Shown: positions 1,851-22,214 of the stretch, piece after piece | How the letters are laid out: every line of letters starts with the position of its first letter | How positions within the stretch are numbered: position 1 is the stretch's first letter | Virus record (IMG/VR): IMGVR_UViG_3300006736_000104 | Span: 1 to 22,214 of that record | Direction: 5' to 3' (one strand) | Source: a virus | DNA length: 22,214 bases | Translations under genes and position numbers: made by a program | Notes under the pieces: model-generated | What the model saw: only the letters and a program-made list of their open reading frames with translations | What the model was told of the DNA's origin: nothing | The model's database searches: none

Positions 1851-2710
1851 TGCCTACAAACTCTTATTTTAATCACTTACAAAATGCCTCAGAACAAAAT
1901 TTACATCAAGATTTAATTATAGAATCGATAAAAAATTTTGGCATAGATAACTATTACCTTCCAAGACAATATGTGAATGAGGATCTTCTTTATGGAGAAG
2001 ATACTATTTCACAATTTAATCAATCCCATTTAATAGAAATGTATGTTAAATCAGTTGATGGTTTTGAAGGAGAAGGTGATTTTATTTCAAGATTTGGATT
2101 AGAAATTAGAGATCAGGTTATCTTTTCTGTGGCGAGAAGAAGATGGGAAAATTTAGATACTGGTTATGATAGACCAAAAGAAGGCGATATAATATTTCTC
2201 CCATTAAACAAAAAACTTTATGAAATTAGATTTGTTGAACACGAATCAATGTTTTATCAATTTGGTAAATTGCCTATATTTGATTTAACATGTGAATTGT
2301 TTCAGTATGATGATCAAAGAATTGATACTGGTATTGAAGACATAGATGATATAGAAGATAAATATGCTTATTCAATAGAAGTAACTCTTGATTCAGGAGG
2401 TTCAGGAAATTATGTAGAAGATGAATATGTATATGTTGGTAGTACTGAAAGTTCTGCTAATACAAAAGGAAGAGTAATATCTTGGAATTCTACTGATAGA
2501 GTATTGAAATTAACAGATTTGATGGGAACTTTTACGTTAAGTCAAAATGTAGTTGGAAATACAAGTGGTGCTTATTATACAGTTGGTACTACACCCAATA
2601 CACAGGAATTTGTTAATGATACAACTGCAAATAATGTAACTATTGAAACCGAAGCAGATTCTATTATTGATTTCTCTGAAGGCAATCCATTTAGTGAAAG
2701 CAATTTTTAA
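1850..2710 (+). CDS. gp14: Neck protein gp14 (head completion)
   Basis: Homologue of T4 gp14, the partner of gp13 in the neck ring that closes the packaged head. Family-like segments are NSYFNHLQNASEQNLHQDLI near the N-terminus, GIDNYYLPRQYVNEDLLYGE (31-50), and RFGLEIRDQVIFSVARRRWE (81-100) followed by RPKEGDIIFLPLNKKLYEIR. It has 286 residues against 256 in T4. The extra length is a C-terminal insertion at about residues 183-250, with repeats (YVYVGSTESSANTKGRV and NVVGNTSGAYYTV) resembling those inserted in the gp13 homologue. The ATG overlaps the gp13 stop by one base. The 3' end overlaps the convergent minus-strand gene by 4 bases: the TTAA at 2707-2710 holds a stop for both strands. Confidence 0.92.
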   Translation: MPTNSYFNHLQNASEQNLHQDLIIESIKNFGIDNYYLPRQYVNEDLLYGEDTISQFNQSHLIEMYVKSVDGFEGEGDFISRFGLEIRDQVIFSVARRRWENLDTGYDRPKEGDIIFLPLNKKLYEIRFVEHESMFYQFGKLPIFDLTCELFQYDDQRIDTGIEDIDDIEDKYAYSIEVTLDSGGSGNYVEDEYVYVGSTESSANTKGRVISWNSTDRVLKLTDLMGTFTLSQNVVGNTSGAYYTVGTTPNTQEFVNDTTANNVTIETEADSIIDFSEGNPFSESNF

Positions 2711-3057
2711 GTTGTAGATTCTGGAAGAATTGTAATCATTCCCTCAACTACCCTTTCTTTTGTTACAGCATCCGCTTGGGTGTATTCAACATCATAAACA
2801 TATAATCCTGAAGACATATTTGCTGTTTGAGTAGCATTAGCGGTTATGGTTACATTACTACCAGATACTGCCGCTGTAAACGTTAGTATCCAAGAAGCAT
2901 TGGTAGTTGCATGATTTTTCTTCATTGAAGAAGCACAAGTACCAGTACTTATGGTCACATTTGAATTATTTGCATCTTTAGCAGTAAAAACTTTTTCAAA
3001 GTTACTGCCTTGATGCATTGTTAAATTTTCGCCTTGAGTTTTTATTGATAGTGCCAT
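2707..3057 (-). CDS. Small Ig-like/BppU-N-like protein of unknown role, antisense to the structural operon
   Basis: A 116-residue protein, all beta in appearance. It has an N-terminal QGSNFEKVFTAKDANNSNV and a C-terminal SGLYVYDVEYTQADAVTK leading into VVEGMITILPEST. This layout (Q-G-x-x-F...F-x-x-K-D near the start, G-x-Y-x-Y-D near the end) resembles the small beta-sandwich found at the N-terminus of BppU-type baseplate proteins and in small marine phage virion proteins. That resemblance is by eye. It is the only minus-strand gene between gp14 and gp15. It converges on gp14 with 4 bases of overlap and diverges from gp15 across a 47-base gap. A perfect TATAAATA lies exactly 5 bases before the ATG and no Shine-Dalgarno fits in that space, so the message may be leaderless. 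An internal Met at residue 14 is an alternative start. Confidence 0.75.
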   Translation of the reverse strand: MALSIKTQGENLTMHQGSNFEKVFTAKDANNSNVTISTGTCASSMKKNHATTNASWILTFTAAVSGSNVTITANATQTANMSSGLYVYDVEYTQADAVTKERVVEGMITILPESTT

Positions 3058-3062
3058 AAGAC

Positions 3063-3070
3063 TATTTATA
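3063..3070 (-). promoter_or_regulatory. T4-type late promoter box (TATAAATA) for the minus-strand gene at 2707-3057
   Basis: The minus strand reads TATAAATA, then GTCTT, then the ATG. This is a perfect match to the T4 late (gp55-dependent) promoter box. T4 late transcription begins a few bases after the box, so the transcript would start at or next to the A of the ATG. Confidence 0.65.
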
Positions 3071-3072
3071 CA

Positions 3073-3080
3073 ACTAAATA
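3073..3080 (+). promoter_or_regulatory. Possible late promoter box (ACTAAATA) for gp15
   Basis: ACTAAATA matches six of eight positions of TATAAATA and lies 24 bases before the gp15 ATG, with a GGAG ribosome-binding site at 3097-3100 between them. It forms a 6-base dyad (TATTTA...TAAATA) with the minus-strand box at 3063-3070, so the 47-base gap may be a compact divergent promoter. The match is weak and the call tentative. Confidence 0.35.
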
Positions 3081-3104
3081 ATATTACAATCTTTATGGAG
3101 TATT

Positions 3105-4043
3105 ATGTTAGGACAAACTTTTTATCATCAAACAATAAGAAAATACGTTGCGTTGTTTGGTACGCTATTTAATGATATTAATATTGAAAAAAAGGACTCG
3201 GGCGGTAATGTTTTATCTCGACAAAAAGTACCAATAGCTTATGGGCCAAAGCAAAAATTTCTTACAAGAATAAATCAAGATGCTAGTTTAGATAGACAAG
3301 TTGCTATTCAACTTCCTAGAATGGGATTTGAAATGACTGGTATTGCTTATGATCCTGTTAGAAAATTAAATACAGTAGGTTCATTGACACATAAAGAAAC
3401 GATAAATGGAAATCGTAATGTTAAGAAGATGTTTAATCCTTCTCCATATATTTTTGATTTTTCTTTATACGCTTTTGTGGAAAATGCTGAAGATGGTACT
3501 CAAATATTAGAACAAATTCTTCCGTTTTTTACTCCAGAATTTAATGTAACTGTTAATATTATAACAGATATGGGTATCTCAATAGATATTCCAATTGTTA
3601 TTCAAAGTGCGACAAGTGAAGATTCTTATGAAGGAGAGTTTTCTGCTAGAAGAACAATTATTTGGACAATATCTTTTATGATGAAAGGATTTATATATCC
3701 TGATATTAAATCTGGTCAATCAATTATTAAAACAATTGAAGTAGCATTTAAAGAAGTCTCTGGGGTCGGGGTCGATGCAAGTGATGAAATGTATCAATTA
3801 TTGTTAGAAACTTCTAATCCTTTTTCACAAGATCAATTTCTGTTGGAAACAGGTAGTCTTCTTTTAACTGAGAATAGTACAACTGAACTCGGTCAGGATA
3901 ATATAATCAGTAAAATTACAATTGTTCCTGAGGGAGGAGCAAACACATATATTACTCCAGGAGACGATTTTGATGCAAACACCACAATAACAGTTTATAG
4001 TCCACCAGTACGTTATGATGAATCAACTGGCACATATGAGTGA
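3105..4043 (+). CDS. gp15: Tail completion and sheath stabiliser protein gp15
   Basis: Homologue of T4 gp15, which caps the finished tail tube and sheath and joins the tail to the neck. Diagnostic stretches are MLGQTFYHQTIRKYVALFGT at the start, VPIAYGPKQKFLTRI (residues 42-56), DRQVAIQLPRMGFEMTGIAY (63-82) and RRTIIWTISFMMKGFIYPDI (182-201). It has 312 residues against 272 in T4. The difference is an insertion at about residues 220-266 built from short repeated segments (QLLLETSN, FLLETGS, LLLTENS). The start is ATG 3105 with GGAG at 3097-3100. It is the first plus-strand gene after the small antisense gene and is followed after 8 bases by gp16. Confidence 0.92.
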   Translation: MLGQTFYHQTIRKYVALFGTLFNDINIEKKDSGGNVLSRQKVPIAYGPKQKFLTRINQDASLDRQVAIQLPRMGFEMTGIAYDPVRKLNTVGSLTHKETINGNRNVKKMFNPSPYIFDFSLYAFVENAEDGTQILEQILPFFTPEFNVTVNIITDMGISIDIPIVIQSATSEDSYEGEFSARRTIIWTISFMMKGFIYPDIKSGQSIIKTIEVAFKEVSGVGVDASDEMYQLLLETSNPFSQDQFLLETGSLLLTENSTTELGQDNIISKITIVPEGGANTYITPGDDFDANTTITVYSPPVRYDESTGTYE

Positions 4044-4051
4044 GATAGATT

Positions 4052-4456
4052 ATGGTAAAAGATTTTGAAGATAAATTAAATGAAATATTAGAAATGCCAT
4101 CTGGCTCTATTGTTAAAAAACCTATTGAAAGAAAAGTTGTTGCATCTAATCCAGATGATTTAAATACTGATTATAAGTATGTTCGTGAAAATATATACAA
4201 TATTATTGAAAGGGGACATGATGCTATTGAAGATTTATTACAAGATGCAAGAGATAGTGGTAATGCTAGAATGTTTGAAGTTGTTGGACAATTAATTAAA
4301 ACTGTTGGTGAACAAAATCAAAATTTAATAAATGTCCATAAACAAGTAAAAGATATCAATCAAGAAAACAGTACAGGACCCAGTTCAGTAACAAATGCAT
4401 TATTTGTTGGTAGTACTGCAGAACTCCAAAAAATGTTAAAAGATAAAAAAGAATAG
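4052..4456 (+). CDS. gp16: Small terminase subunit gp16
   Basis: Homologue of T4 gp16, the small terminase that regulates and recruits the gp17 packaging motor to DNA. It has 134 residues, shorter than T4 gp16 (164). The helical core DYKYVRENIYNIIERGHDAI and the segment FEVVGQLIKTVGEQNQNLIN are typical of the coiled-coil oligomerisation region in marine T4-like small terminases. The C-terminal tail VTNALFVGSTAELQKMLKD is a family signature. It starts 8 bases after gp15 (ATG 4052). Its TAG overlaps the GTG start of the next gene (TAGTG). In T4, gene 17 follows directly; here a 473-residue gene intervenes. Confidence 0.88.
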   Translation: MVKDFEDKLNEILEMPSGSIVKKPIERKVVASNPDDLNTDYKYVRENIYNIIERGHDAIEDLLQDARDSGNARMFEVVGQLIKTVGEQNQNLINVHKQVKDINQENSTGPSSVTNALFVGSTAELQKMLKDKKE

Positions 4457-5877
4457 TGGCACATTTAGGACAAATCGACAGAAGAAATCCAGGACAGGTT
4501 GTTTTCACACGATATGTTACAGAAAATTCTGACTGGAAAAACTTGAAGCTGAGAATAGAGAATGGTCAGGTTGCGGAAATGTTCCAAGAAAATGTTAATG
4601 CATTAGAAAGCATGAATGTTACTATTCATCCAAGAACAGAAATAAAATTACTTTCAGAGAAATATAAAGAATTTGAAAGTAAAAAGTATGCTAATATTGA
4701 ATATCAGAGAAAAAAAGGATATGTATTAATTTCAAAAATAAGAAAACCAACAGATGATCTTGGTACAGAGAGACCAAAGAAATTACAAATATTAGCGGAA
4801 GATTTTACAGAAAAAGGTAATGATGAAAAAATAACCGTTCTTTCTAAAAAAGATGTTCCAGTAAAATTGTTTAAGACTTATGAAAATTTAAAAAAAAGCG
4901 TTATTTGGGGATTAGATAATAAAATTCATAATAATGATTATCTTGTAGAAAAAATAAAAACATATTTAGATAAAGATGATTTATCTGAAATTGATTTGAA
5001 GGGTATTGATGATAGTCATGTTGATGAGCTTGGTGTATATTTTGGTGAAATTTTAATAGGAATATTAGCATTTAAAAAGCAGTTATCAGACACTTGTACT
5101 CCTTCTGATATGTTTGGTATTAATTTACAATCTTTTAGTATTCCAACTGATCCTGCATTTAAACTTGTTGATAGTAGTTTGATATTTGATACGACTACCG
5201 TTAGTGTATCAAGTAAATATGATAAAGGCGCCGCCGCATCATTTATGTCGAATGTTCTTCCTTATGGTATGAAATATTATACTGATTATAGAGATTGTTT
5301 TTTTAAAAAAATGTGTGAAATCGCATCTAATATGGGATATACAACACAACAAGTAGGAGCGAATAGATTTAAATATTCAAAAAATATAACATTTGAAGTT
5401 GGATTAAGAGCAGTATTAAAAATAAAAAAATCAATTGTAAAAAATTCAAATCATTCTGTTTATGAGAGTATTCGAAAGGTTGCAATGAATCAGAGTCTTT
5501 CACCAAAAGAAAATGAAGAACTTGATGAAGTAATAGGAGCAATAGAAGATTATTTTATAAAGAGAAAAACTTTTGATGGAAGAGAACAAGTTACAGAAAC
5601 AATAAGAAATAATTATCCTTTTACAATTACTTCTTTTTTTAATTATTCTGTAGCAAGTATGTTAAATAATGATCGGTTATCAAGAAAATATGTTCACGAA
5701 ATAATTGGTGGTAAAGATTTTTATCAAGCAAATTTAAATAAAACTAAATGGAGAAAAGGTATTATTGATATAAAAATGGTTTCTCCTAAATCTGCTACAT
5801 TAAAAATATTAGGATCCATGTCAGGCGCTATGGATTTTACTGCAAAACAGGGTTTAGTAAATTACGAGTTAAAATAA
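4456..5877 (+). CDS. Unassigned 473-residue protein between the terminase genes, possibly nuclease-like
   Basis: I do not recognise this gene with confidence. It starts at a GTG overlapping the gp16 stop by one base and ends in a TAATG overlap with gp17, so it is translated as part of the packaging block. The N-terminal 180 residues are charged and Lys-rich (IHPRTEIKLLSEKYKEFESK). The centre holds a helix with an acidic residue (ELGVYFGEILIGIL, E198), then FKLVDSSLIFDTTTVSVSSK (residues 235-254, with D239, D245 and S252-x-K254), then YDKGAAAS. A helix-borne Glu, a strand-borne Asp and an (S/E)-x-K strand followed by Gly-Ala is compatible with a degenerate PD-(D/E)xK nuclease core, but this is only a pattern match. 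The C-terminus (FNYSVASMLNNDRLSRKYVH, IIDIKMVSPKSATLKILGSM) looks globular. A nuclease-like packaging or genome-protection factor or an accessory virion protein would both fit. Confidence 0.8.
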   Translation: MAHLGQIDRRNPGQVVFTRYVTENSDWKNLKLRIENGQVAEMFQENVNALESMNVTIHPRTEIKLLSEKYKEFESKKYANIEYQRKKGYVLISKIRKPTDDLGTERPKKLQILAEDFTEKGNDEKITVLSKKDVPVKLFKTYENLKKSVIWGLDNKIHNNDYLVEKIKTYLDKDDLSEIDLKGIDDSHVDELGVYFGEILIGILAFKKQLSDTCTPSDMFGINLQSFSIPTDPAFKLVDSSLIFDTTTVSVSSKYDKGAAASFMSNVLPYGMKYYTDYRDCFFKKMCEIASNMGYTTQQVGANRFKYSKNITFEVGLRAVLKIKKSIVKNSNHSVYESIRKVAMNQSLSPKENEELDEVIGAIEDYFIKRKTFDGREQVTETIRNNYPFTITSFFNYSVASMLNNDRLSRKYVHEIIGGKDFYQANLNKTKWRKGIIDIKMVSPKSATLKILGSMSGAMDFTAKQGLVNYELK

Positions 5878-7520
5878 TGGCTAGAGATACTTACGCAGGA
5901 AATCCTCTTCTTAAAGGGGCATATCAACCAGTAGAATATGATAAAGAAACTATAGAAGAATTTATTAGATGTGAGAAAGATCCCGTACATTTTGCAAAAC
6001 AGTATATGCAAATTATTCATGTTGATCACGGTTTAATGCCTTTTGATCTTTATGATTATCAAGAAGAAATGGTTCAGACAATGCATGAGAATCGTTTTGT
6101 TATTTGTAAAATGCCTAGACAAACTGGAAAATCAACAACGATTGTTGCTTACTTATTACATTTTGCTCTTTTTAATCCACAATCTAATATTGCTATATTA
6201 GCAAATAAGGGTTCTACTTCAAGAGAGATTCTTCAAAGATTAAAAACGGCTTATGAGCATTTACCAAAATGGTTGCAACAAGGTGTAGTTGTTTGGAATA
6301 GGGGTAATATTGAATTAGAAAACGGTAGTAAAGTTATATCCGCCTCAACTTCTTCTTCTGCAGTTCGTGGATCGTCTTTTAATATCATCTTTATGGACGA
6401 GTTTGCACACATTGATCCTCCTAAGTTAGCAGAAGATTTCTTTACTTCAGTATATCCTACAATTTCTTCTGGTAGCACCACTAAAGTTTTTATTGTTTCA
6501 ACTCCAAAAGGATTGAACATGTTTTATAAGATGTGGGTTGATGCTGAAGAGAAAAGAAGTAATTATGTTCCTATTGAAGTTCATTGGTCTCAAACACCTG
6601 GAAGAGATCAAAAGTGGAAAGAAGAAACGATAAAAAATACGAGTGAAATGCAATTTGCTCAAGAATATGAATGTGATTTTATTGGTTCACAAAATACATT
6701 AATTTCTCCTTCTAAATTAAGAACATTGCCATATAAACCACCTATTTCAAAGAAAGATAGTCTAGATGTATATGTTGAACCAGATCCTAAGCATTCATAT
6801 GTGTGTATAGTTGATGTTGCAAGAGGAAGGGGACAAGATTATTCTGCATTTTCAATAATTGATGTTTCTCAATTTCCGTATGAACAAGTTGCAAAATATA
6901 GAGATGAAAACATTTCTCCTATATTATTACCAAATATTGTTGATAATGTGAGTAGATATTATAATACTGCATATGTTTTAGTTGAAATAAATGATATTGG
7001 TGGTCAAGTAGCAGATATTTTACATCACGATTTAGAATATCCCAATATTTTTCAAACAAGTGTTATGGGAAGATCGGGTCAAACTTTAGGGGGAGGATTC
7101 GGAAAAAGTTCACAATTAGGAATTAGAACTACAAAAGAAGTTAAAAGAAAAGGATGTTCTAGTTGTAAAGATTTGATAGAGGGAGACAAATTACTTATTT
7201 GGGATCTTGACACTATTACTGAAATGACAACATATGTTGCTAAAGGATCAAGTTATGAAGCAGATGAGGGATATCATGATGACTTGATGGCGACATTAAT
7301 TTTGTTTGGTTGGTTAGTGAATCAAAAATATTTCACAGAAATTACAGATTTAGATTTACGTGAAAAAATGTTTAAAGAACAATTAGATGAAGCAGAATCA
7401 CAATTGATACCTTTTGGATATATAAATGATGGAAGAGATTCTTATGAGCCAGAAACCGTGGATATGGGTGGAGAAAAATGGATAGTAGATAAAAAATATT
7501 CTACTGATTATATACATTAA
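5877..7520 (+). CDS. gp17: Large terminase subunit gp17 (packaging ATPase and nuclease)
   Basis: Homologue of T4 gp17, the motor that cuts concatemeric DNA and drives it through the portal using ATP. ATPase domain: Walker A KMPRQTGKSTT (residues 78-88), Walker B NIIFMDEFAH (169-178, D174 and E175), and a coupling-motif-like FIVSTPKG (205-212). Nuclease domain of RNase H-like fold: D313 in IVDVARGRGQDYSAFSIID (311-329), E370 in YVLVEINDIGGQVADIL (366-382), and the D468-D469 pair in DEGYHDDLMATLILFGWL (463-480). KGCSSCKDLIEGDKLLIW (425-442) also matches the T4 C-terminal half. At 547 residues it is shorter than T4 gp17 (610). All key residues are present, so it should be active. The start overlaps the upstream gene (TAATG). 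The last 20 bases overlap the convergent HNH gene. Confidence 0.95.
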   Translation: MARDTYAGNPLLKGAYQPVEYDKETIEEFIRCEKDPVHFAKQYMQIIHVDHGLMPFDLYDYQEEMVQTMHENRFVICKMPRQTGKSTTIVAYLLHFALFNPQSNIAILANKGSTSREILQRLKTAYEHLPKWLQQGVVVWNRGNIELENGSKVISASTSSSAVRGSSFNIIFMDEFAHIDPPKLAEDFFTSVYPTISSGSTTKVFIVSTPKGLNMFYKMWVDAEEKRSNYVPIEVHWSQTPGRDQKWKEETIKNTSEMQFAQEYECDFIGSQNTLISPSKLRTLPYKPPISKKDSLDVYVEPDPKHSYVCIVDVARGRGQDYSAFSIIDVSQFPYEQVAKYRDENISPILLPNIVDNVSRYYNTAYVLVEINDIGGQVADILHHDLEYPNIFQTSVMGRSGQTLGGGFGKSSQLGIRTTKEVKRKGCSSCKDLIEGDKLLIWDLDTITEMTTYVAKGSSYEADEGYHDDLMATLILFGWLVNQKYFTEITDLDLREKMFKEQLDEAESQLIPFGYINDGRDSYEPETVDMGGEKWIVDKKYSTDYIH

Positions 7521-7923
7521 TACGGTGTATATTTTTAGGATCTTTTATTTGTTCTATTAATTTGTCTATATCATGTTTTAAATCGGGTCTTAGTTTTTTC
7601 AATTTCTGTAAATATCTTATAGATTCATTAAATATCATTTCAGGATTAATTCTTAATTCGTAGAATTTATTCCTAGTTTCACTTTTTGTAGTTAAATATA
7701 AATGCTCTGGTTTTACACAGTATGTATTATTACAGGATTGATGAACTATTTTATTTTGTTCAATAGGCCCTTTATAAGCAATATATGCAAATCTATGAGC
7801 AGGAATTGATTTTCCATCATAAGAAAACATACCATACCCCTGTTTTGTTTTACTTGCAGTCCAAAACCAACAATCATTTGTTTTTAAAATTTTCTTTTCA
7901 AATCTTTCAATAGCCTTCTTCAT
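7501..7923 (-). CDS. Free-standing HNH endonuclease (homing-like)
   Basis: A 140-residue protein. The N-terminal part CWFWTASKTKQGYGMFSYDG followed by PAHRFAYIAYKG is the usual lead-in of phage HNH_3-type endonucleases. The core IVHQSCNNTYCVKPEHLYLT (residues 59-78) supplies H61, N65/N66 and H74, plus the Cys pair C64/C69 that often binds structural zinc. A Lys-rich helical tail (residues 95-130) may contact DNA. The catalytic set looks intact. The gene lies antisense between gp17 and gp18, converging on gp17 with 20 bases of overlap. A perfect TATAAATA sits exactly 5 bases before its ATG. Homing endonucleases are common between late genes of T4-like phages; an HNH gene beside a terminase can also assist packaging in other phages. 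Homing is the likelier role here. Confidence 0.85.
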   Translation of the reverse strand: MKKAIERFEKKILKTNDCWFWTASKTKQGYGMFSYDGKSIPAHRFAYIAYKGPIEQNKIVHQSCNNTYCVKPEHLYLTTKSETRNKFYELRINPEMIFNESIRYLQKLKKLRPDLKHDIDKLIEQIKDPKNIHRINVYNQ

Positions 7924-7928
7924 TTAAT

Positions 7929-7936
7929 TATTTATA
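7929..7936 (-). promoter_or_regulatory. T4-type late promoter box (TATAAATA) for the HNH gene
   Basis: The minus strand reads TATAAATA, then ATTAA, then the ATG at 7923. The box and 5-base spacing are identical to those of the other minus-strand gene (box 3063-3070). No Shine-Dalgarno fits between box and start, so a leaderless late transcript is predicted. Confidence 0.65.
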
Positions 7937-7940
7937 TTAC

Positions 7941-7948
7941 AATAAATA
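7941..7948 (+). promoter_or_regulatory. Secondary late-promoter-like box (AATAAATA) upstream of gp18
   Basis: AATAAATA matches seven of eight positions of TATAAATA and forms a TATTTA...TAAATA dyad with the minus-strand HNH box, as in the gp14-gp15 gap. The perfect box at 7974-7981 is the better candidate for gp18. Confidence 0.3.
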
Positions 7949-12753: not shown

Positions 12754-15393
12754 ATGAAAGACGATCAAAACGAGTCAAAAGACTTAGATTTAAGTAAAGT
12801 TTTAGCTACTGCTCTTGCTTATACTAAAAAAACACTTAAAAAGACTAAAGAAGAACTTGTTGTAGGTATAAAAGAAATTTTAGATCCTGTAACTGGTGAA
12901 AAAGTCAGAGTTCTTGAGATCAAAGGTACTGAAGGTTCCAAGGGCGAAAAGGGTGAAAAGGGAGAGCAAGGAGATCCTGGTCCCAAAGGTGAACGGGGAG
13001 AAGCAGGAAGAATTGGTCCACAGGGTGTTCTGGGTCCTAAGGGAGACCTAGGAGATGTTGGTCCCATAGGTCCAAAAGGAGACCAGGGAGAACCAGGTGA
13101 TGATGCTGATGTAACTAAACTTGCAAAAGAGTTAGATAATTTCAAATCAGTTGTTAAGAAAGTTAGCGAAAAGGCCACTCAAACTGCACAAAAAGTAGCA
13201 GGAGGAAGTGGTTGGGGCGACTCTGGAGGCGGTGGGGGCGGAGATACTTCTTCAGGATCTGCTGGATCTTCTGGATCGTCTGGTTTAACATATGCTTCTT
13301 CTGGATCTGCAGGAAGTTCTGGAAGTGCTGGTGGAACAGGATCATCTGGATCTTCTGGGACAACGGGTTCGTCTGGATCTTCTGGGACAACGGGTTCGTC
13401 TGGATCGTCTGGTTTAACATATGCTTCTTCTGGATCTGCTGGAACTGCTGGTTCTGCAGGATCGTCTGGTTCTTCTGGAATTGCTGGTTCTTCTGGATCT
13501 GCTGGTTCTGCAGGAAGTGCTGGTTCTTCAGGAACTTCTGCTACAAATGGAACATCTGGTACATCAGGCGTAGATGGCGAACAGGGAGATGAGGGACCAG
13601 GAGGAACTTCTGGCTCTTCGGGAACTACTGGAACACATGGAAGTTCTGGTTCTGCTGGATCTTCTGGGACATCTGGTACATCAGGAGCAGATGGAACTGA
13701 AGGAGACACGGGTCCTCAAGGAACTGGGGGAACATCTGGATCATCTGGAAGCGCAGGAAGTGCAGGATCGTCTGGCTCTGCAGGAAGTGCTGGCTCTGCT
13801 GGAACTGCTGGTTCTGCAGGATCGTCTGGTTCTTCTGGAATTGCTGGTTCTTCTGGATCTGCTGGTTCTGCAGGAAGTGCTGGAACATCCGGATCAGATG
13901 GATCAGATGGAACTTCAGGATCATCTGGACAAGATGGCGGTTTTGGCGGTGCTTCATTTGCATATCGCTACAGTACAGATCAAACAACAAATGATCCAGG
14001 CACAGGTAAATTAGCATTTACATTAACTTCTGGTACTTTTACATATCCCAATACTGCTAATAGATTAAGAATAAGTGATACCGATCAAGATGGTACAACA
14101 ATTGATTCTTTCTTACAGACAATCGATGATGTTGCTTTTAGTGATCCAAAAGGCCATTTTCGGGTTTATGATAAATCAGCTCCTGAAGATTTTTTCTTAT
14201 ATGGTATCAATGGATTTGACACTACAAATCCTTCATGGTATTATGTAAATGTTACATTTTTAGACTCTTCATTAAATAATTTTCAAAACAATACTGAACT
14301 TGTTGCATCATTTGCGAGAACTGGTGATTCTGGAACTTCTGGAAGCGCAGGAAGTGCAGGAAGTGCTGGATCATCTGGATGGACTTATGCATCATCTGGC
14401 TCTGCTGGATCGTCTGGTTTAACATATGCTTCTTCTGGATCTGCTGGATCTGCAGGAAGTTCTGGAACTGGTGGAGAAACAGGATCGTCTGGTACTACTG
14501 GTTCTTCTGGATCTGCAGGAAGTGCTGGATCATCTGGACAAGATGGTGGTTCTTGGATTCATGTTCAAAATTCAGCTTCAAGTGTTTGGTTGATAAATCA
14601 TAATTTAGGAGTTAGACCTTTAAATATTGAAGTTGTAAATACTGATTATGATGTAATTTATCCAGAATCAATTCGTTATATAAGTTCAAATACTGCTAAA
14701 TTAGTTTTTACTTCTGCAATAGCAGGATGGGCGGCATTAACTTTTGGAGAAGGATCTTCTGGAACTTCTTGTTCTTCTGGAACATCTGGAACCTCTGGAA
14801 CCTCTGGAAGTGCAGGAAGTGCTGGAAGTGCTGGAAGCGCAGGAAGTGCTGGTTCTGCTGGAAGTGCAGGAAGTGCTGGTTCTTCTGGGTGGACTTATGC
14901 ATCATCTGGATCATCTGGTTCTGCAGGAAGTGCTGGCTCTGCTGGATCGTCTGGCTCTGCGGGAAGTGCAGGAAGCGCAGGAAGTGCTGGCTCTGCAGGA
15001 AGCGCAGGAAGCGCAGGATCATCTGGTTCTGCAGGAAGTGCTGGATCATCCGGACATATGCTAATAAATAATCGTGCGGAAGATCGTGTAATAACTATTA
15101 GTTCTGATACTGATATTGGTGATGCAGAAACAAATTTAACATTTGATGGTAATGAATTAGAAGTAACAGGTAAAACAATTTTAGTGGGTACAAATGGAAC
15201 AACGGGTTATTTACAGATGAATCAGAGAGATGATGTTTCTGCTAATAAACCTACTTTATCTGCAGGACAATCTGCAGTTTTTTCTGCTTCTTCAGGAGCT
15301 GGAGGAACTGGAATATATTTTAAACAAGGTACTGGAGACCCTGATGAATTGGTTTCTAGAAAAAAAGCAATAACTTATGGATTAATATTCTAA
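12754..15393 (+). CDS. Collagen/silk-like tail fibre or appendage protein (879 residues)
   Basis: Residues 1-57 form a helical, charged head. Residues 58-117 are 20 uninterrupted collagen triplets with Pro, Lys and Glu ([18 protein letters not shown]). A short helical segment follows (about 118-148, [20 protein letters not shown]), then a Gly-rich hinge. Gly-Ser-Ala/Ser/Thr triplet linkers occupy about 168-391, 527-594 and 667-766. Globular domain A (392-526) starts [15 protein letters not shown], contains DPGTGKLAF and ends FARTGDSG. Domain B (595-667) starts [11 protein letters not shown], contains [17 protein letters not shown] and ends LTFGEG. A and B resemble domains recurring in collagen-like phage fibres. 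The C-terminus (767-879, [20 protein letters not shown]) is a beta-rich fibre tip. Proline is almost absent from the linkers. Two 89-base exact repeats lie in the first linker. The start is ATG 12754 with GAGA upstream. Confidence 0.85.
13255..13926 (+). repeat. Gly-Ser-Ala/Thr triplet-coding array, first linker of the 879-residue protein
   Basis: Tandem 9-base units coding for GSA, GSS, GTS and GTT triplets (residues 168-391), with a few charged triplets ([18 protein letters not shown]). Codons vary synonymously. Two G(L/W/F)TYASSG breaks occur at 13282 and 13411. Confidence 0.85.
13435..13883 (+). repeat. Pair of 89-base exact direct repeats within the first linker
   Basis: Bases 13435-13523 are identical to 13795-13883, offset by exactly 360 bases (120 codons), so the reading frame and triplet register are kept. 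Flanking bases differ on both sides. The loss of synonymous variation points to a recent duplication or gene conversion. Confidence 0.75.
14752..15051 (+). repeat. Gly-Ser-Ala triplet-coding array, last linker of the 879-residue protein
   Basis: About 100 residues of GSA/GSS/GTS triplets between domain B and the C-terminal tip (residues 667-766), with one GWTYASSG break at 14887. It includes a lone Cys codon (TGT, in [10 protein letters not shown]), unusual because the linkers otherwise lack Cys. The linker between domains A and B (14332-14535) is of the same type. Confidence 0.8.
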
Positions 15394-15721: not shown

Positions 15722-18700
15722 ATGGCATTATTTCTTAAAGGCGAATACGCAGAATATAGTATAAAAGACTATACAACTTCTGGGTCTGCAGGATCCGCAG
15801 GAAGCGCAGGAAGTACAGGGAGTTCTGGCTCTGCTGGCTCTACAGGGAGTGCTGGATCATCTGGTTCTGCTGGAACTTCTGGATCTGATGGATTAGCAAC
15901 GGCTTCATCTGGTACTGCTGGATCATCTGGACAAGATGGAGTCTTTGGTGGACACGCTCTTGAATACGTTTTTGATGATGATGCATATGTTGGCTACCCG
16001 ACCGCCCAAGAGACAGCACCAGGTATGTGTAGGCCAGGACGTGATATCGGCTCGTATCCGGGTTCCAACCCTTTCTCCTACACCGATAGAATTGCTCTAA
16101 GTGAAGAGGATGTACATGGTGCAAATACAGCAGATTTATTGGCTCAAGTTTATACTTCTACATCTGAGATTAGAGGTCATTTAAGAATATCGAAAAAATT
16201 TGATGAGTCTGAGTATGTAACGTTTGATATTGATGGTGGTACAAATCAAACGGGTTTTCAAGAAATACACGTTACAAGAATCCAAGGACTAAGTGACTTC
16301 TTTGATGATAATGCAAACGTAATTGTTACATTTGACAGAACTGGTGATGCTGGATCTTCTGGCTCTGCTGGCTCTGCAGGAAGTGCTGGAAGTGCTGGTT
16401 CTGCTGGATCCTCTGGAAGTGCTGGCTCTGCAGGAAGTGCTGGATCTGCTGGATCGTCTGGTCGTGATGCTTCTTCAGGAACCGCAGGAAGTGCTGGCTC
16501 TGCTGGAACATCTGGTTCTGCAGGAAGCGCAGGAAGTGCTGGAACATCTGGAACTTCTGGATCGTCTGGCTCTGCAGGAAGTGCTGGCTCTGCAGGAAGC
16601 GCAGGAAGTGCTGGTTCTGCTGGAACTTCTGGATCCTCTGGAAGTGCTGGCTCTGCAGGAAGTGCTGGCTCTGCTGGAAGTGCTGGCTCTGCAGGAAGTG
16701 CTGGCTCTGCTGGTTCTGCAGGATCTTCTGGATTTACATATGCATCATCTGGATCTTCTGGCTCTGCTGGAAGTGCTGGTTCTGCTGGATCGTCTGGTCG
16801 TGATGGTGGTTCTTGGATTCATGTTCAAAATTCAGCTTCAGTAGTTTGGTTAATAAATCATGGTTTGGGTACTAGACCGATAAACATTCAAATTGTTGAT
16901 TCTAATTATAATGCAATAACTGCTGAATCAATTCAGTACGTAGATTCAAATAATATAAAAGTGGTATTTACTACTGCAGTAGCTGGATGGGCCGCAATCA
17001 CTTTTGGAGAAGGGTCTTCTGGAACTTCTGGTTCTTCTGGAACATCTGGAACCTCTGGCTCTGCAGGAAGTGCTGGTTCTGCTGGAAGCGCAGGAAGTGC
17101 TGGCTCTGCAGGAAGTGCAGGAAGTGCTGGATCTTCTGGATCATCTGCAACTGCAGGAACTTCTGGTTCATCTGGACAAGACGGTGGTTTTGGTGGCGCG
17201 GCTTTTGAATATTATTTTGAAGATACAACATTTACGGGTGCCGCTAGTGATCCAGGCTCGGGCAGAGTTGAAGTGGGTATTGATACTGGAACTGCTCCTA
17301 CAGATTTTTCTACAGTTGATAGAATTTCTTTGAGTGAAGCTGATATAAATGGTACATCAACCGAAAGTTTTCTAGATCAACTTGATGGCGCATCATCTGC
17401 GATTAAAGGTCATGTCAGATTTGCTGAATTGCTTGATGCGAGTAAATATGTAATGTTCACTATTACAGATTTAGATAATGATTCTGGTTTTCAAGAACTA
17501 ACAGTTTCAAAAATTGGTGGGAATGATGCTTTATTTAGTGATGATCAAAAAATACTCGTTACATTTGCAAGAACTGGTGATGCTGGAACTTCTGGAACCG
17601 CTGGTTCTGCAGGAAGTGCTGGTAGTGCTGGAAGTTCTGGCTCTGCTGGAAGTGCTGGCTCTGCTGGTTCTGCTGGAAGTGCTGGAAGTGCAGGATCATC
17701 TGGTCGTGATGGTAGTTCTTATCTTCATACTCAATCTTCAGCTAATAATACTTGGACTATACCTTATAATTTAGGACTTAGGCCAATAAACATTGAAGTT
17801 ACTGATTCTAATTTTAATGTAATATATCCAGAATCTATTCATTTTCCAGATTCTGATACTGCAAAAATAATTTTTCCTACTGCTCAAGCAGGATATGCCG
17901 CAGTAACTTTTGGAGAAGGATCTTCTGGTTCTTCTGGTTCTTCTGGATTAACGTATGCTTCATCTGGTTCTTCTGGAACCTCTGGAACCTCTGGCTCTGC
18001 AGGAAGTGCTGGTTCTGCTGGAAGCGCAGGAAGTGCTGGTTCTGCAGGAAGTGCTGGCTCTGCTGGAACATCTGGTTCTGCAGGAAGCGCAGGAAGCGCA
18101 GGAAGTGCTGGCTCTGCAGGAAGTTCTGGTTCTGCTGGAACATCTGGATCATCTGGAAGTGCTGGCTCTGCTGGAACATCTGGATCATCTGGAAGTGCTG
18201 GAAGTGCTGGATCTTCGGGAACTTCTGCTACTGCTGGATCTGCTGGATCGTCTGGTTCTTCTGGTTCTGCAGGAAGTGCTGGCTCTGCTGGAACTTCTGG
18301 AACATCTGGAACCTCTGGAACATCTGGAACCTCTGGAACCTCTGGAACTTCTGGCTCTGCAGGAAGTGCTGGTTCTGCTGGCTCTGCTGGAACATCTGGA
18401 TCATCTGGAAGTGCTGGTTCTGCTGGATCTTCGGGAACTTCTGCTACTGCTGGATCTGCTGGATCGTCTGGTTCTTCTGGTTCTGCAGGAAGTGCTGGAA
18501 GTGCTGGTTCTGCTGGATCTTCGGGAACTTCTGCTACTGCTGGATCTGCTGGATCTGCTGGAACATCTGGATCATCTGGAAGTGCTGGTTCTGCAGGAAG
18601 TGCTGGTTCTGCTGGATCGTCTGGCTCTGCAGGAAGCGCAGGAAGCGCAGGATCATCTGGTTCTGCTGGAACTGCAGGTTCATCCGGTAGTGATGGTGGT

Positions 18701-20761
18701 TCTTATATTCATACTCAAGGTTCAGCTTCAATTGTCTGGTTAATACCTTATAATCTTAATACACGACCTGTAAATATTGAAGTTGTAGATAATAATTATA
18801 ATGTAATTTTTCCAGAATCAATTCAATACATAGATTCAAATACTGCAAAAATAATATTTCCTACTGCAGTAGCGGGATATGCCGCAGTAACTTTTGGAGA
18901 AGGAAGTTCTGGAACTTCTGGAAGTGCTGGAAGTGCTGGAAGTGCTGGCTCTGCTGGAACCTCTGGAACTGCTGGATCATCTGGACAAGATGGAAACTTT
19001 GGTGGTGCATCTTTTCAATTCGTTTTTGAAGATACAACATTTACAGGAGCAGGAAGTGATCCTGGTACTGGTAAAATTGAAGTGGGTATTGATACTGGAT
19101 CTGCACCTACTGATTGGTCTACAGTTAATAGACTTTCTGTAAGTGAAACAGATACAAATGGTTCATCAGTTGAAAGTTTTCTAGATCAAGTTGATACATC
19201 ATCTTCTGCAATTAAAGGACATATAAAATTATCAAAAACGTTTGATCCATCTGAATATGTAATGTTCACAATTAATGATCTTACTAATAATTCGGGTTAT
19301 CAAATTATAGAAGTTGATAAGGTTGGAGGAGTAACTTCATTATTTCCTGATGACGATACTGTACTTTTTTCTGTTGCAAGAACTGGTGATGTTGGAACAT
19401 CTGGAACTTCTGGTTCTTCTGGAACATCTGGAACCTCTGGAACCTCTGGAACCTCTGGAAGTGCAGGAAGTGCTGGAAGCGCAGGAAGTGCTGGTTCTGC
19501 TGGAAGTGCAGGAAGTGCTGGCTCTGCTGGACTAGATGGTTCTTCTGGATCTGCTGGCTCTGCAGGAAGTTCTGGTGCTGATGGTGTGGCTGGCGGTTCT
19601 TATTTACATACACAATCTGTATCTTCCCTTACTTGGTTGGTAAATCATTCTCTAACTGCTCAACCAGTAAATATTATTATTACAGATTCTAATTATAATG
19701 TTATCATTCCAGAATCTATTCAATTTATAGATTCGAATAATGCAAAAGTAGTATTAGCTACCACATCAACTGGTTATGCCTCAGTAACACAGGGATCGGG
19801 AACTTCTGGAACTGCTGGCTCTGCTGGAACTTCTGGTTCTTCTGGAACATCTGGAACCTCTGGAACATCTGGAACCTCTGGTTCTTCTGGTTCTGCTGGA
19901 AGTGCTGGCTCTGCTGGAACCTCTGGAACTGCTGGATCATCTGGATTAACGTATGCTTCTTCTGGCTCTGCAGGAAGTGCTGGAGCTGATGGTGCGGGCG
20001 GAACTTCTGGAACTTCTGGAACTTCTGGAACTGCTGGAACTTCAGGTGCTACATATGGTGCTCCAGCAGGAGCCGCTGGATATATTCAATGGTATTATGA
20101 TTCTCAAAATATGGGGGCACATGCAAATTTATTAGTAGATAATGTTGCTACACCAACTCAATTGGCCGCTAATATGCCCATCTATTCTTCAAGTGGTGTA
20201 ACGGGAGTAGCTAAATTTAAAGTACATGGAACTTCTGGACTTGATGGAGCAACTAATGTAGGAGGAACTTTAACTACAGTAAATGTTGTTCCTGTTTCAA
20301 ATAATACGTATGATATTGGTACATCAACAATGGTGTATAATGACATGTATGCAGTTACATTTAATGGAAGAGCAACATCAGCAAACTGGTCTGACTTGGC
20401 CGAGAGATATGAATCTGATGAAATCTATGAGCCCGGAACTGTTTTAGCAGTTGGAGGAATAAAAGAAGTTACTTTGTATCAAGCTGAAATGCCTTATGCT
20501 GGTGTTGTTTCAGATAAACCTGGATTGAGAATGAATGATGGTATGAAACAAAGAGAAAATGAATTTATGCTCTTTATTTGTTTGAAAGGAAGAATATTAG
20601 TTAAGATTGAGGGAGGATGTAACAAAGGGGATCTTATAGTAGCTTATAATGATGGAACAGGAAAGGTTATAAATAAATATGAATACAAGCCACATAAACA
20701 TGATTTGATTGGAATAGCATTAGCTAATAGTAATGCAGGATTTGTTGAAGTAAAGGTTTAA
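15722..20761 (+). CDS. Giant modular silk/collagen-like fibre or appendage protein (1679 residues)
   Basis: A short head (1-19, [19 protein letters not shown]) leads into Gly-Ser-Ala/Thr linkers carrying globular modules. In order: A1 70-210, B1 359-430, A2 485-621, B2 661-732, B3 989-1060, A3 1088-1224, B4 1285-1357. A modules start GQDG and end RTGD(A/V)G. B modules have SYIHTQ...W-x-I/V-x-(H/Y)-x-L...P-(V/I)-NI and mostly end TFGEGSSG. Linkers are roughly 43 percent of the protein; the longest is about 256 residues (733-988). The C-terminal part (from about 1442) includes [40 protein letters not shown], and a conserved end with [16 protein letters not shown] and [20 protein letters not shown]. 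This end resembles the tip/chaperone-like domain closing many marine phage fibres; self-cleavage is possible but unproven. The start ATG 15722 follows the 107-residue gene after 3 bases. Confidence 0.87.
16352..16795 (+). repeat. Gly-Ser-Ala/Thr triplet-coding array between modules A1 and B1
   Basis: 148 codons of GSA/GSS/GTS triplets (residues 211-358), interrupted by one GRDASSG segment and one GFTYASSG break at 16730. Shorter arrays of the same type lie at 15779-15928, 17012-17173, 17585-17701, 18902-18982 and 19394-19573. Confidence 0.8.
17918..18685 (+). repeat. Longest Gly-Ser-Ala/Thr array (256 codons) between modules B2 and B3
   Basis: Residues 733-988, the longest linker in the window. 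It contains three copies of a [10 protein letters not shown] segment in which Ala replaces one Gly without losing register, a run of seven GTS triplets, and one GLTYASSG break at 17945. It sits where the A-B alternation predicts an A module. Confidence 0.82.
18206..18498 (+). repeat. 77-base exact direct repeat inside the longest linker
   Basis: Bases 18206-18282 are identical to 18422-18498, offset by 216 bases (72 codons). Near-identity continues upstream from about 18165 with one synonymous Gly-Ser codon-pair difference. A third, shorter copy begins at 18512. This is a recent in-frame tandem duplication. Confidence 0.75.
19793..20044 (+). repeat. Gly-Thr/Ser-Ser triplet-coding array before the C-terminal domain
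   Basis: 84 codons (residues 1358-1441), richer in GTS and GTA than the other linkers, with a GLTYASSG break at 19943 and a GADGAGG segment. It joins module B4 to the C-terminal tip domain. Confidence 0.78.
20668..20675 (+). promoter_or_regulatory. Possible late promoter box (TATAAATA) inside the 3' end of the giant fibre gene
   Basis: A perfect TATAAATA 87 bases before the ATG at 20763. It could drive the block of three small genes downstream. It lies in coding sequence (KVINKYE), so chance is not excluded. Confidence 0.35.
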
Positions 20762-21793: not shown

Positions 21794-22214
21794 TGGGTTC
21801 ACCGTGTCCAACAAATTTAACATCGACAGGAAGTGATGGAGCGCATTCGAGTGCAGGAGTTCCAGCAGTAGCAGGAACTGTAATCGAACAAACACCATTT
21901 GATACGTTGCGACTCTCTACAAATCATGAATTCACTCGGCGTAGTCTGCCAACCGTTTCATGGACTGGTTACCTGAATCCAATTGAAACCATTATTTATA
22001 ATGAAATACGTGATCACATTGCAACCAAATTAGGTACAAATACTCCTGCTAGTAATCCATTAGGAACTACAGTTTCAGCAGGACAGTTAATTGAAGCTGA
22101 TGGCACATCACCCGCATCTTATAATGATTTAGTAGATCGATTAGATGAATGGAAAGTAGCATGTGTATGTGATTGTGATCATTGTCCTTGTGATTGTGAC
22201 CATTGTCCCTGTCA
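21793..22214 (+). CDS. Protein with tandem Cys/His-rich repeats (3' truncated by window end)
   Basis: An open frame from ATG 21793, overlapping the previous stop by one base (TAATG), to the window edge: 140 complete codons. GGAG at 21779-21782 is a usable ribosome binding site. The N-terminal 120 residues are an ordinary globular sequence (VSWTGYLNPIETIIYNEIRD; ASYNDLVDRLDEWKVA). At residue 124 it switches to CVCDCDHCPCDCDHCPC, with the CDCDHCP unit repeated in tandem up to the edge. Dense Cys with Asp and His suggests metal binding or a disulfide-linked spike; I cannot tell which. I recall similar C-x-C-(N/D) repeats in uncharacterised marine T4-like phage proteins, but did not search. The upstream gene order suggests a virion-associated role. 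Confidence 0.75.
   Translation, partial: MGSPCPTNLTSTGSDGAHSSAGVPAVAGTVIEQTPFDTLRLSTNHEFTRRSLPTVSWTGYLNPIETIIYNEIRDHIATKLGTNTPASNPLGTTVSAGQLIEADGTSPASYNDLVDRLDEWKVACVCDCDHCPCDCDHCPC
22168..22209 (+). repeat. Two 21-base tandem repeats coding CDCDHCP
   Basis: Unit 1 is 22168-22188 and unit 2 is 22189-22209. They differ only at two synonymous third positions (GAT/GAC and CCT/CCC). A third unit begins at 22210 and is cut by the window end, so the true copy number is unknown. Confidence 0.8.

Follow-up and report, generated by a model that had tools for sequence, protein, structure and literature searches.

We propose that in a group of marine T4-like phages a late box of the type recognized by gp55 is placed so that the predicted transcription start falls on the A of the ATG start codon, giving rise to a genome-wide class of late genes with leaderless messages; we put the probability of this reading at roughly 0.83. 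Two genes in the window, by which we mean the whole stretch of 22,214 bases of viral DNA that was analyzed, led to this proposal, namely an antisense gene for a tail protein and a gene for an HNH endonuclease. T4 late boxes occupy positions −13 to −6 (PMC1524935), and with a box in this place and a spacing of five bases the +1 position falls on the A of the ATG. The T4-type box would be recognized by RNA polymerase together with gp55, the late sigma factor of the phage, and transcription would start on that A, so that the late mRNAs of both genes would be leaderless, and ribosomes would then initiate by recognition of the 5′-terminal AUG rather than by Shine-Dalgarno pairing. The two genes would thus be instances of a second late-gene class that exists genome-wide beside the ordinary leadered late genes.

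Two Minus-Strand Genes with the Same Box and Spacing

The minus strand from 3070 to 3055 consists of TATAAATA (3070–3063), GTCTT (3062–3058), and ATG (3057–3055), and this ATG starts an ORF of 116 codons (2707–3057). The HNH gene (7501–7923, minus strand) is likewise preceded by TATAAATA (7936–7929), which is followed by ATTAA and then by the ATG. The features of the two loci are as follows.

2707–3057, minus strand: LtfC-like tail protein gene, 116 aa, antisense, between gp14 and gp15
3055–3057, minus strand: ATG start codon; its A is the +1 predicted from T4 geometry, and Met1 is invariant in 22 homologues
3058–3062, minus strand: 5-base spacer GTCTT, predicted −5 to −1, without a Shine-Dalgarno sequence
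3063–3070, minus strand: T4-type late promoter box TATAAATA, exact match, predicted −13 to −6
3073–3080, plus strand: late-type box ACTAAATA, 24 bases before the gp15 ATG at 3105
7501–7923, minus strand: HNH endonuclease gene, 140 aa, likewise predicted to be a leaderless late gene, the second in the window
7929–7936, minus strand: late box TATAAATA of the HNH gene, 5 bases before the ATG
7941–7948, plus strand: late-type box AATAAATA, back-to-back with the HNH box and 4 bp from it

The box alone is not significantly enriched in the window (6 occurrences vs. 2.8 expected), whereas TATAAATA-N5-ATG occurs twice against a mean of 0.07 in dinucleotide shuffles, in which the maximum was 1 and none of 100 shuffles contained two; the unusual element at both loci is therefore the spacing. 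The preliminary description had reported the box and the five-base spacing at both genes and had judged the layout not to be accidental. The letters are as it gave them, and its judgment agrees with the shuffles as well as with the reversed-pattern controls described below. Its count of only two minus-strand TATAAATA boxes in the window has to be corrected to three, the third (21993–22000) lying within a plus-strand ORF and having no gene start downstream of it.

At both genes late-type boxes on opposite strands stand back-to-back, 2 bp apart at 3063–3080 and 4 bp apart at 7929–7948, and this arrangement is conserved in relatives. The gene on the other side of the first pair, gp15, is leadered (GGAG at 3098–3101), and the columns of ACTAAATA are conserved among relatives; at the place of AATAAATA, a box of the form (A/C)TAAATA recurs in most relatives of the HNH family. 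With an opposite-strand box only 2–4 bp away, the two promoters of a pair should compete for polymerase. A search for an intrinsic terminator near the antisense gene found none, and the RNA structure at the 5′ end of the predicted message showed nothing notable.

Profile hits for the antisense protein are phrog_3304 ("L-shaped tail fiber protein assembly"; e value 2.8e-13), phrog_1084 (1.4e-14), and, below the cut-off of 27 bits, the Pfam model LtfC (PF23926; 3e-5, 24.9 bits); a search of solved structures gave no significant match. Judged by these matches, the product is probably an LtfC-like tail protein. The ORF is conserved, with variation mostly at third codon positions, and lies within a T4-like structural module between gp14 (head closure) and gp15 (tail sheath stabilizer), and homologues are also found among the tail genes of HTVC008M, Mosig, and Melnitz, which are phages of SAR11/OM43 bacteria. 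The antisense gene and gp14 overlap tail to tail by four bases (2707–2710), where TTAA provides both stop codons. The HNH protein matches HNH_3 (PF13392; 4.5e-8) and phrog_3593 (6e-22).

The portal protein of the window has at best approximately 53% identity to portals of sequenced phages, those of cyanophages being closest. The same module is present, with a gp14 that is 95% identical, on a contig of 161 kb (PAAV01000055.1, 161,038 bases), which is from the same phage clade and was binned in the Chloroflexi MAG NAT137, either a possible hint at the host or a binning error. Between gp16 and gp17 the window contains an ORF of 473 aa with a GTG start (4456–5877) that is conserved in relatives and has no PHROG match. 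Two very long genes (12754–15393 and 15722–20761) encode proteins that consist in large part of GSAGSAG/GSSG repeats and are probably tail fibers, and the repeat gives rise to long open stretches in other frames.

Conservation in Relatives of the Two Genes

We compared the antisense gene with 80 relatives from IMG/VR. All 46 loci of its clade, which are antisense to gp14 and gp15 and 63–100% identical, keep (T/A)ATAAATA-N5-ATG, and none of the 46 has a Shine-Dalgarno sequence before the start. The spacer is five bases long in every one of them, and its letters differ in the more divergent loci (GTTGT, ATAGT). Among 27 distinct haplotypes, all eight columns of the box are invariant and the spacer is nearly so, compared with 14.5% of third codon positions. 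Met1 is invariant across 22 aligned homologues including those of HTVC008M, Mosig, and Melnitz, and Met14 is not conserved; Met14, which the preliminary description had named as the start whose conservation in homologues would speak against its prediction, was rejected as the true start for this reason.

In three further antisense loci (L047–L049) the gene has a Shine-Dalgarno leader, with TATAAATA approximately 40 bases upstream. At the 31 more distant loci the LtfC-like gene does not run antisense to gp14 and gp15; in those of the loci that were listed, it has the sense orientation, immediately precedes gp13, and mostly starts after AAGGAG or AAGGAA. The gene has moved: in L050–L080 it precedes gp13 in sense and has a Shine-Dalgarno-like leader, and in L001–L046 it is antisense and predicted to be leaderless.

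Of 27 distinct variants of the HNH family, 19 have their first in-frame ATG 5 bases after the box; in six others the spacing is 4, in one it is 6, and in one it is 7. The letters of the spacer and the length of the N-terminus vary in this family while the spacing stays at 4–7.

The preliminary description had suggested searching related phages for the box-N5-ATG layout upstream of antisense late genes. The layout proved to be conserved and enriched over controls; the link to antisense genes did not hold. Antisense orientation was rejected as its cause because most families with the layout are encoded in sense, many of them virion parts, and because L047–L049 are antisense yet have Shine-Dalgarno leaders.

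A Spacing Class in Marine T4-like Phages

Across 24 related records, some of whose contigs are near-duplicates of one another, WATAAATA-N5-ATG gave 51 matches, and its reversed-pattern control gave one. In four SAR11/OM43 isolates (0.57 Mb), MTAAATA-N5-ATG gave 32 matches against two for the controls, and a control pattern with a spacing of 7 showed no excess (8 vs. 7). Histograms of the distance from box to ATG for ORFs of at least 60 aa in HTVC008M, Mosig, and Melnitz have an isolated peak of 21 ORFs at spacing 5, with 0–3 ORFs at every other spacing from 0 to 14, and a leadered class at approximately 15–33 after this gap. The layout with spacing 5 was identified in 48 genes that represent 20 families in 16 genomes or contigs, and the start codons at the peak are 48 ATG, one GTG, and no TTG. 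A Shine-Dalgarno sequence is missing from 47 of the 48 genes, compared with 35 of 128 genes that have boxes 15–49 bases away. Annotated members in HTVC008M include a baseplate wedge subunit, the DNA end protector, head closure, the tail completion protein, the baseplate tail tube cap, a putative tape measure, CsgF, and a cyclase. The predicted ATGs coincide with the starts annotated by the depositors in 12 of 12 cases in HTVC008M and in all four that were checked in Mosig and Melnitz.

Among the IMG/VR matches listed, TATAAATAGTnnTATG fronts an ORF of at least 60 aa at 106 of 123 sites, compared with 23 of 121 when the spacer is one base shorter and 44 of 118 when it is one base longer; these scans measure the fraction of listed sites that front an ORF, not totals. 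A measure based on upstream stop codons was dropped because the spacing-4 pattern itself contains an in-frame TAG. The 161-kb contig from the clade of the window has six genes with spacing 5 and none with spacing 4 or 6. A gp55 homologue (41% identity, e value 1e-21) is encoded on this contig and on a 77-kb contig of the same clade as well as in HTVC008M, Mosig, and Melnitz; gp55 is absent from the 22-kb window itself. Comparative genomics lends good support to the leaderless late mRNA that the preliminary description had predicted, in that box, spacing, and Met1 are kept and the same spacing forms a peak in the SAR11/OM43 phages. At the predicted +1 of the leadered late genes we counted A in 57 cases, G in 18, T in 13, and C in none; the region is A-rich throughout, which makes this purine preference weak.

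In HTVC008M (NC_020484), the divergent genes for the DNA end protector and head closure at 18916 (minus strand) and 18943 (plus strand) have abutting late boxes, both with spacing 5. Their start codons are approximately 26 bp apart, and both genes are predicted to be leaderless.

The layout is not supported as a general trait of T4-like phages. In T4, KVP40, ten cyanophages, and C48C1 (2.52 Mb), MTAAATA-N5-ATG gave 32 matches against 25 reversed controls, which places T4, KVP40, and the cyanophages near background. One T4 match lies inside mobB and not at a gene start, and two cyanophage genes have the layout at annotated starts (P-SSM2 25115 and P-HM1 101883). The distance from box to ATG in T4 and three cyanophages peaks at 20–28, with a small count of five at spacing 5.

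Several other readings of the layout have to be weighed. Transcription might start one to three bases to either side of the A, or from several adjacent positions, and ribosomes would use a very short 5′ end. The HNH variants with spacings 4, 6, and 7 favor such loose placement, as does the higher fraction for spacing 6 than for spacing 4 among the IMG/VR matches listed, and together the HNH variants and the spacing-6 sites (44 of 118 listed) require that leaders of 0–2 bases, or slight displacements of the start site, be tolerated. However, in the complete isolates and in the clade of the window the peak is at exactly 5 and spacings 4 and 6 are nearly empty, which is tighter than a loose choice of start site would need, and we consider this reading improbable. 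Chance in AT-rich DNA, a by-product of constraint on the opposite gp15 promoter, or a start codon misplaced from Met14 could also be invoked, given that the window shows no enrichment of TATAAATA by itself and that the nearest box on the other strand is 2 bp distant. These explanations are hardly credible against the shuffles, the reversed-pattern controls, and the spacing-7 control without excess, the invariance of Met1 but not of Met14, and the presence of the layout at many other genes.

The late promoter could, alternatively, be real while the message that is translated is a longer one without a Shine-Dalgarno sequence that reads in from upstream, the spacing then reflecting genome compaction only. 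Leadered translation without a Shine-Dalgarno sequence occurs in bacteria, the intergenic space is short with 47 bases between the divergent starts, and there is a weak sigma-70-like match at 3131–3102. Sigma-70-like matches in the region are nevertheless below the shuffle mean (2 vs. 3.6 expected), and compaction alone would yield neither one exact spacing in 20 families nor a near-empty zone at spacings 6–14, which makes read-in very unlikely. Placement of the box for a start on the A of the ATG remains our preferred reading. The restriction of the spacing-5 peak to AUG fits leaderless initiation in Escherichia coli and Caulobacter, where AUG is preferred (PMC9031893). The near-empty zone between the two spacing classes resembles the split between leaderless and leadered messages in Lactococcus, in which leaders were either shorter than five bases or close to 40, with none of 4 to 14 bases observed (PMC10986495).

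Relation to Known Systems and Implications

Both leaderless mRNAs and T4 late promoters are already known. The late promoters of T4, which depend on gp55, gp33, and gp45, share the 8-bp TATAAATA box with the clade described here, which also has a gp55 homologue; the ATG in T4, however, mostly follows the box by 20–29 bases and in our test never by fewer than 13, whereas here it often follows by exactly five. The cI gene of phage lambda differs from the genes described here in being a single gene of a temperate phage with a host-type promoter and not a late-gene class. The cI mRNA is leaderless (PMC9031893), so that a phage mRNA beginning at AUG is common to both, as a prediction in the present case. 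Bacterial leaderless genes have a −10 box approximately 12 bp before the start codon (PMC3160421) and resemble the layout in having a promoter box roughly one helical turn before the start codon and in lacking a Shine-Dalgarno sequence; they use host sigma-70-type boxes, whereas the box here belongs to a phage late sigma factor and fronts a late-gene class of lytic phages. The T4 homing endonuclease genes I-TevI and segB have close late promoters (PMC2988022) and thus, like the HNH gene, are endonuclease genes with their own late promoter just upstream. The late transcript of those T4 genes frees a Shine-Dalgarno sequence from a hairpin, whereas the HNH gene has no Shine-Dalgarno sequence.

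Late-promoter prediction in pelagimyophages was unsuccessful in a 2020 study (PMC7029224). Our literature search, which covered few subscription journals, found no report of a leaderless late-gene class set by a late-sigma box in T4-like phages. The rule N[AC]TAAATA-N5-ATG would mark late promoters and start codons together in phages of very abundant ocean bacteria. From the layout one would expect some of the virion genes to be translated without Shine-Dalgarno pairing, a prediction that the cultured phages HTVC008M, Mosig, and Melnitz allow to be tested directly, and the LtfC-like family, with its predicted leaderless and its leadered forms, offers a natural comparison. A more tentative proposal, which we think has a minor chance of being correct, is that T4-like phages of the SAR11/OM43 type split their late genes by promoter placement for joint control of virion genes at the level of translation, with the divergent boxes serving as compact two-way promoters. 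If so, back-to-back late boxes, including those of the HTVC008M pair at 18916 and 18943, would act in both directions from one compact site, and a late-infection shift in translation, such as one involving initiation factors or free 70S ribosomes, could jointly govern how much a group of virion genes produces.
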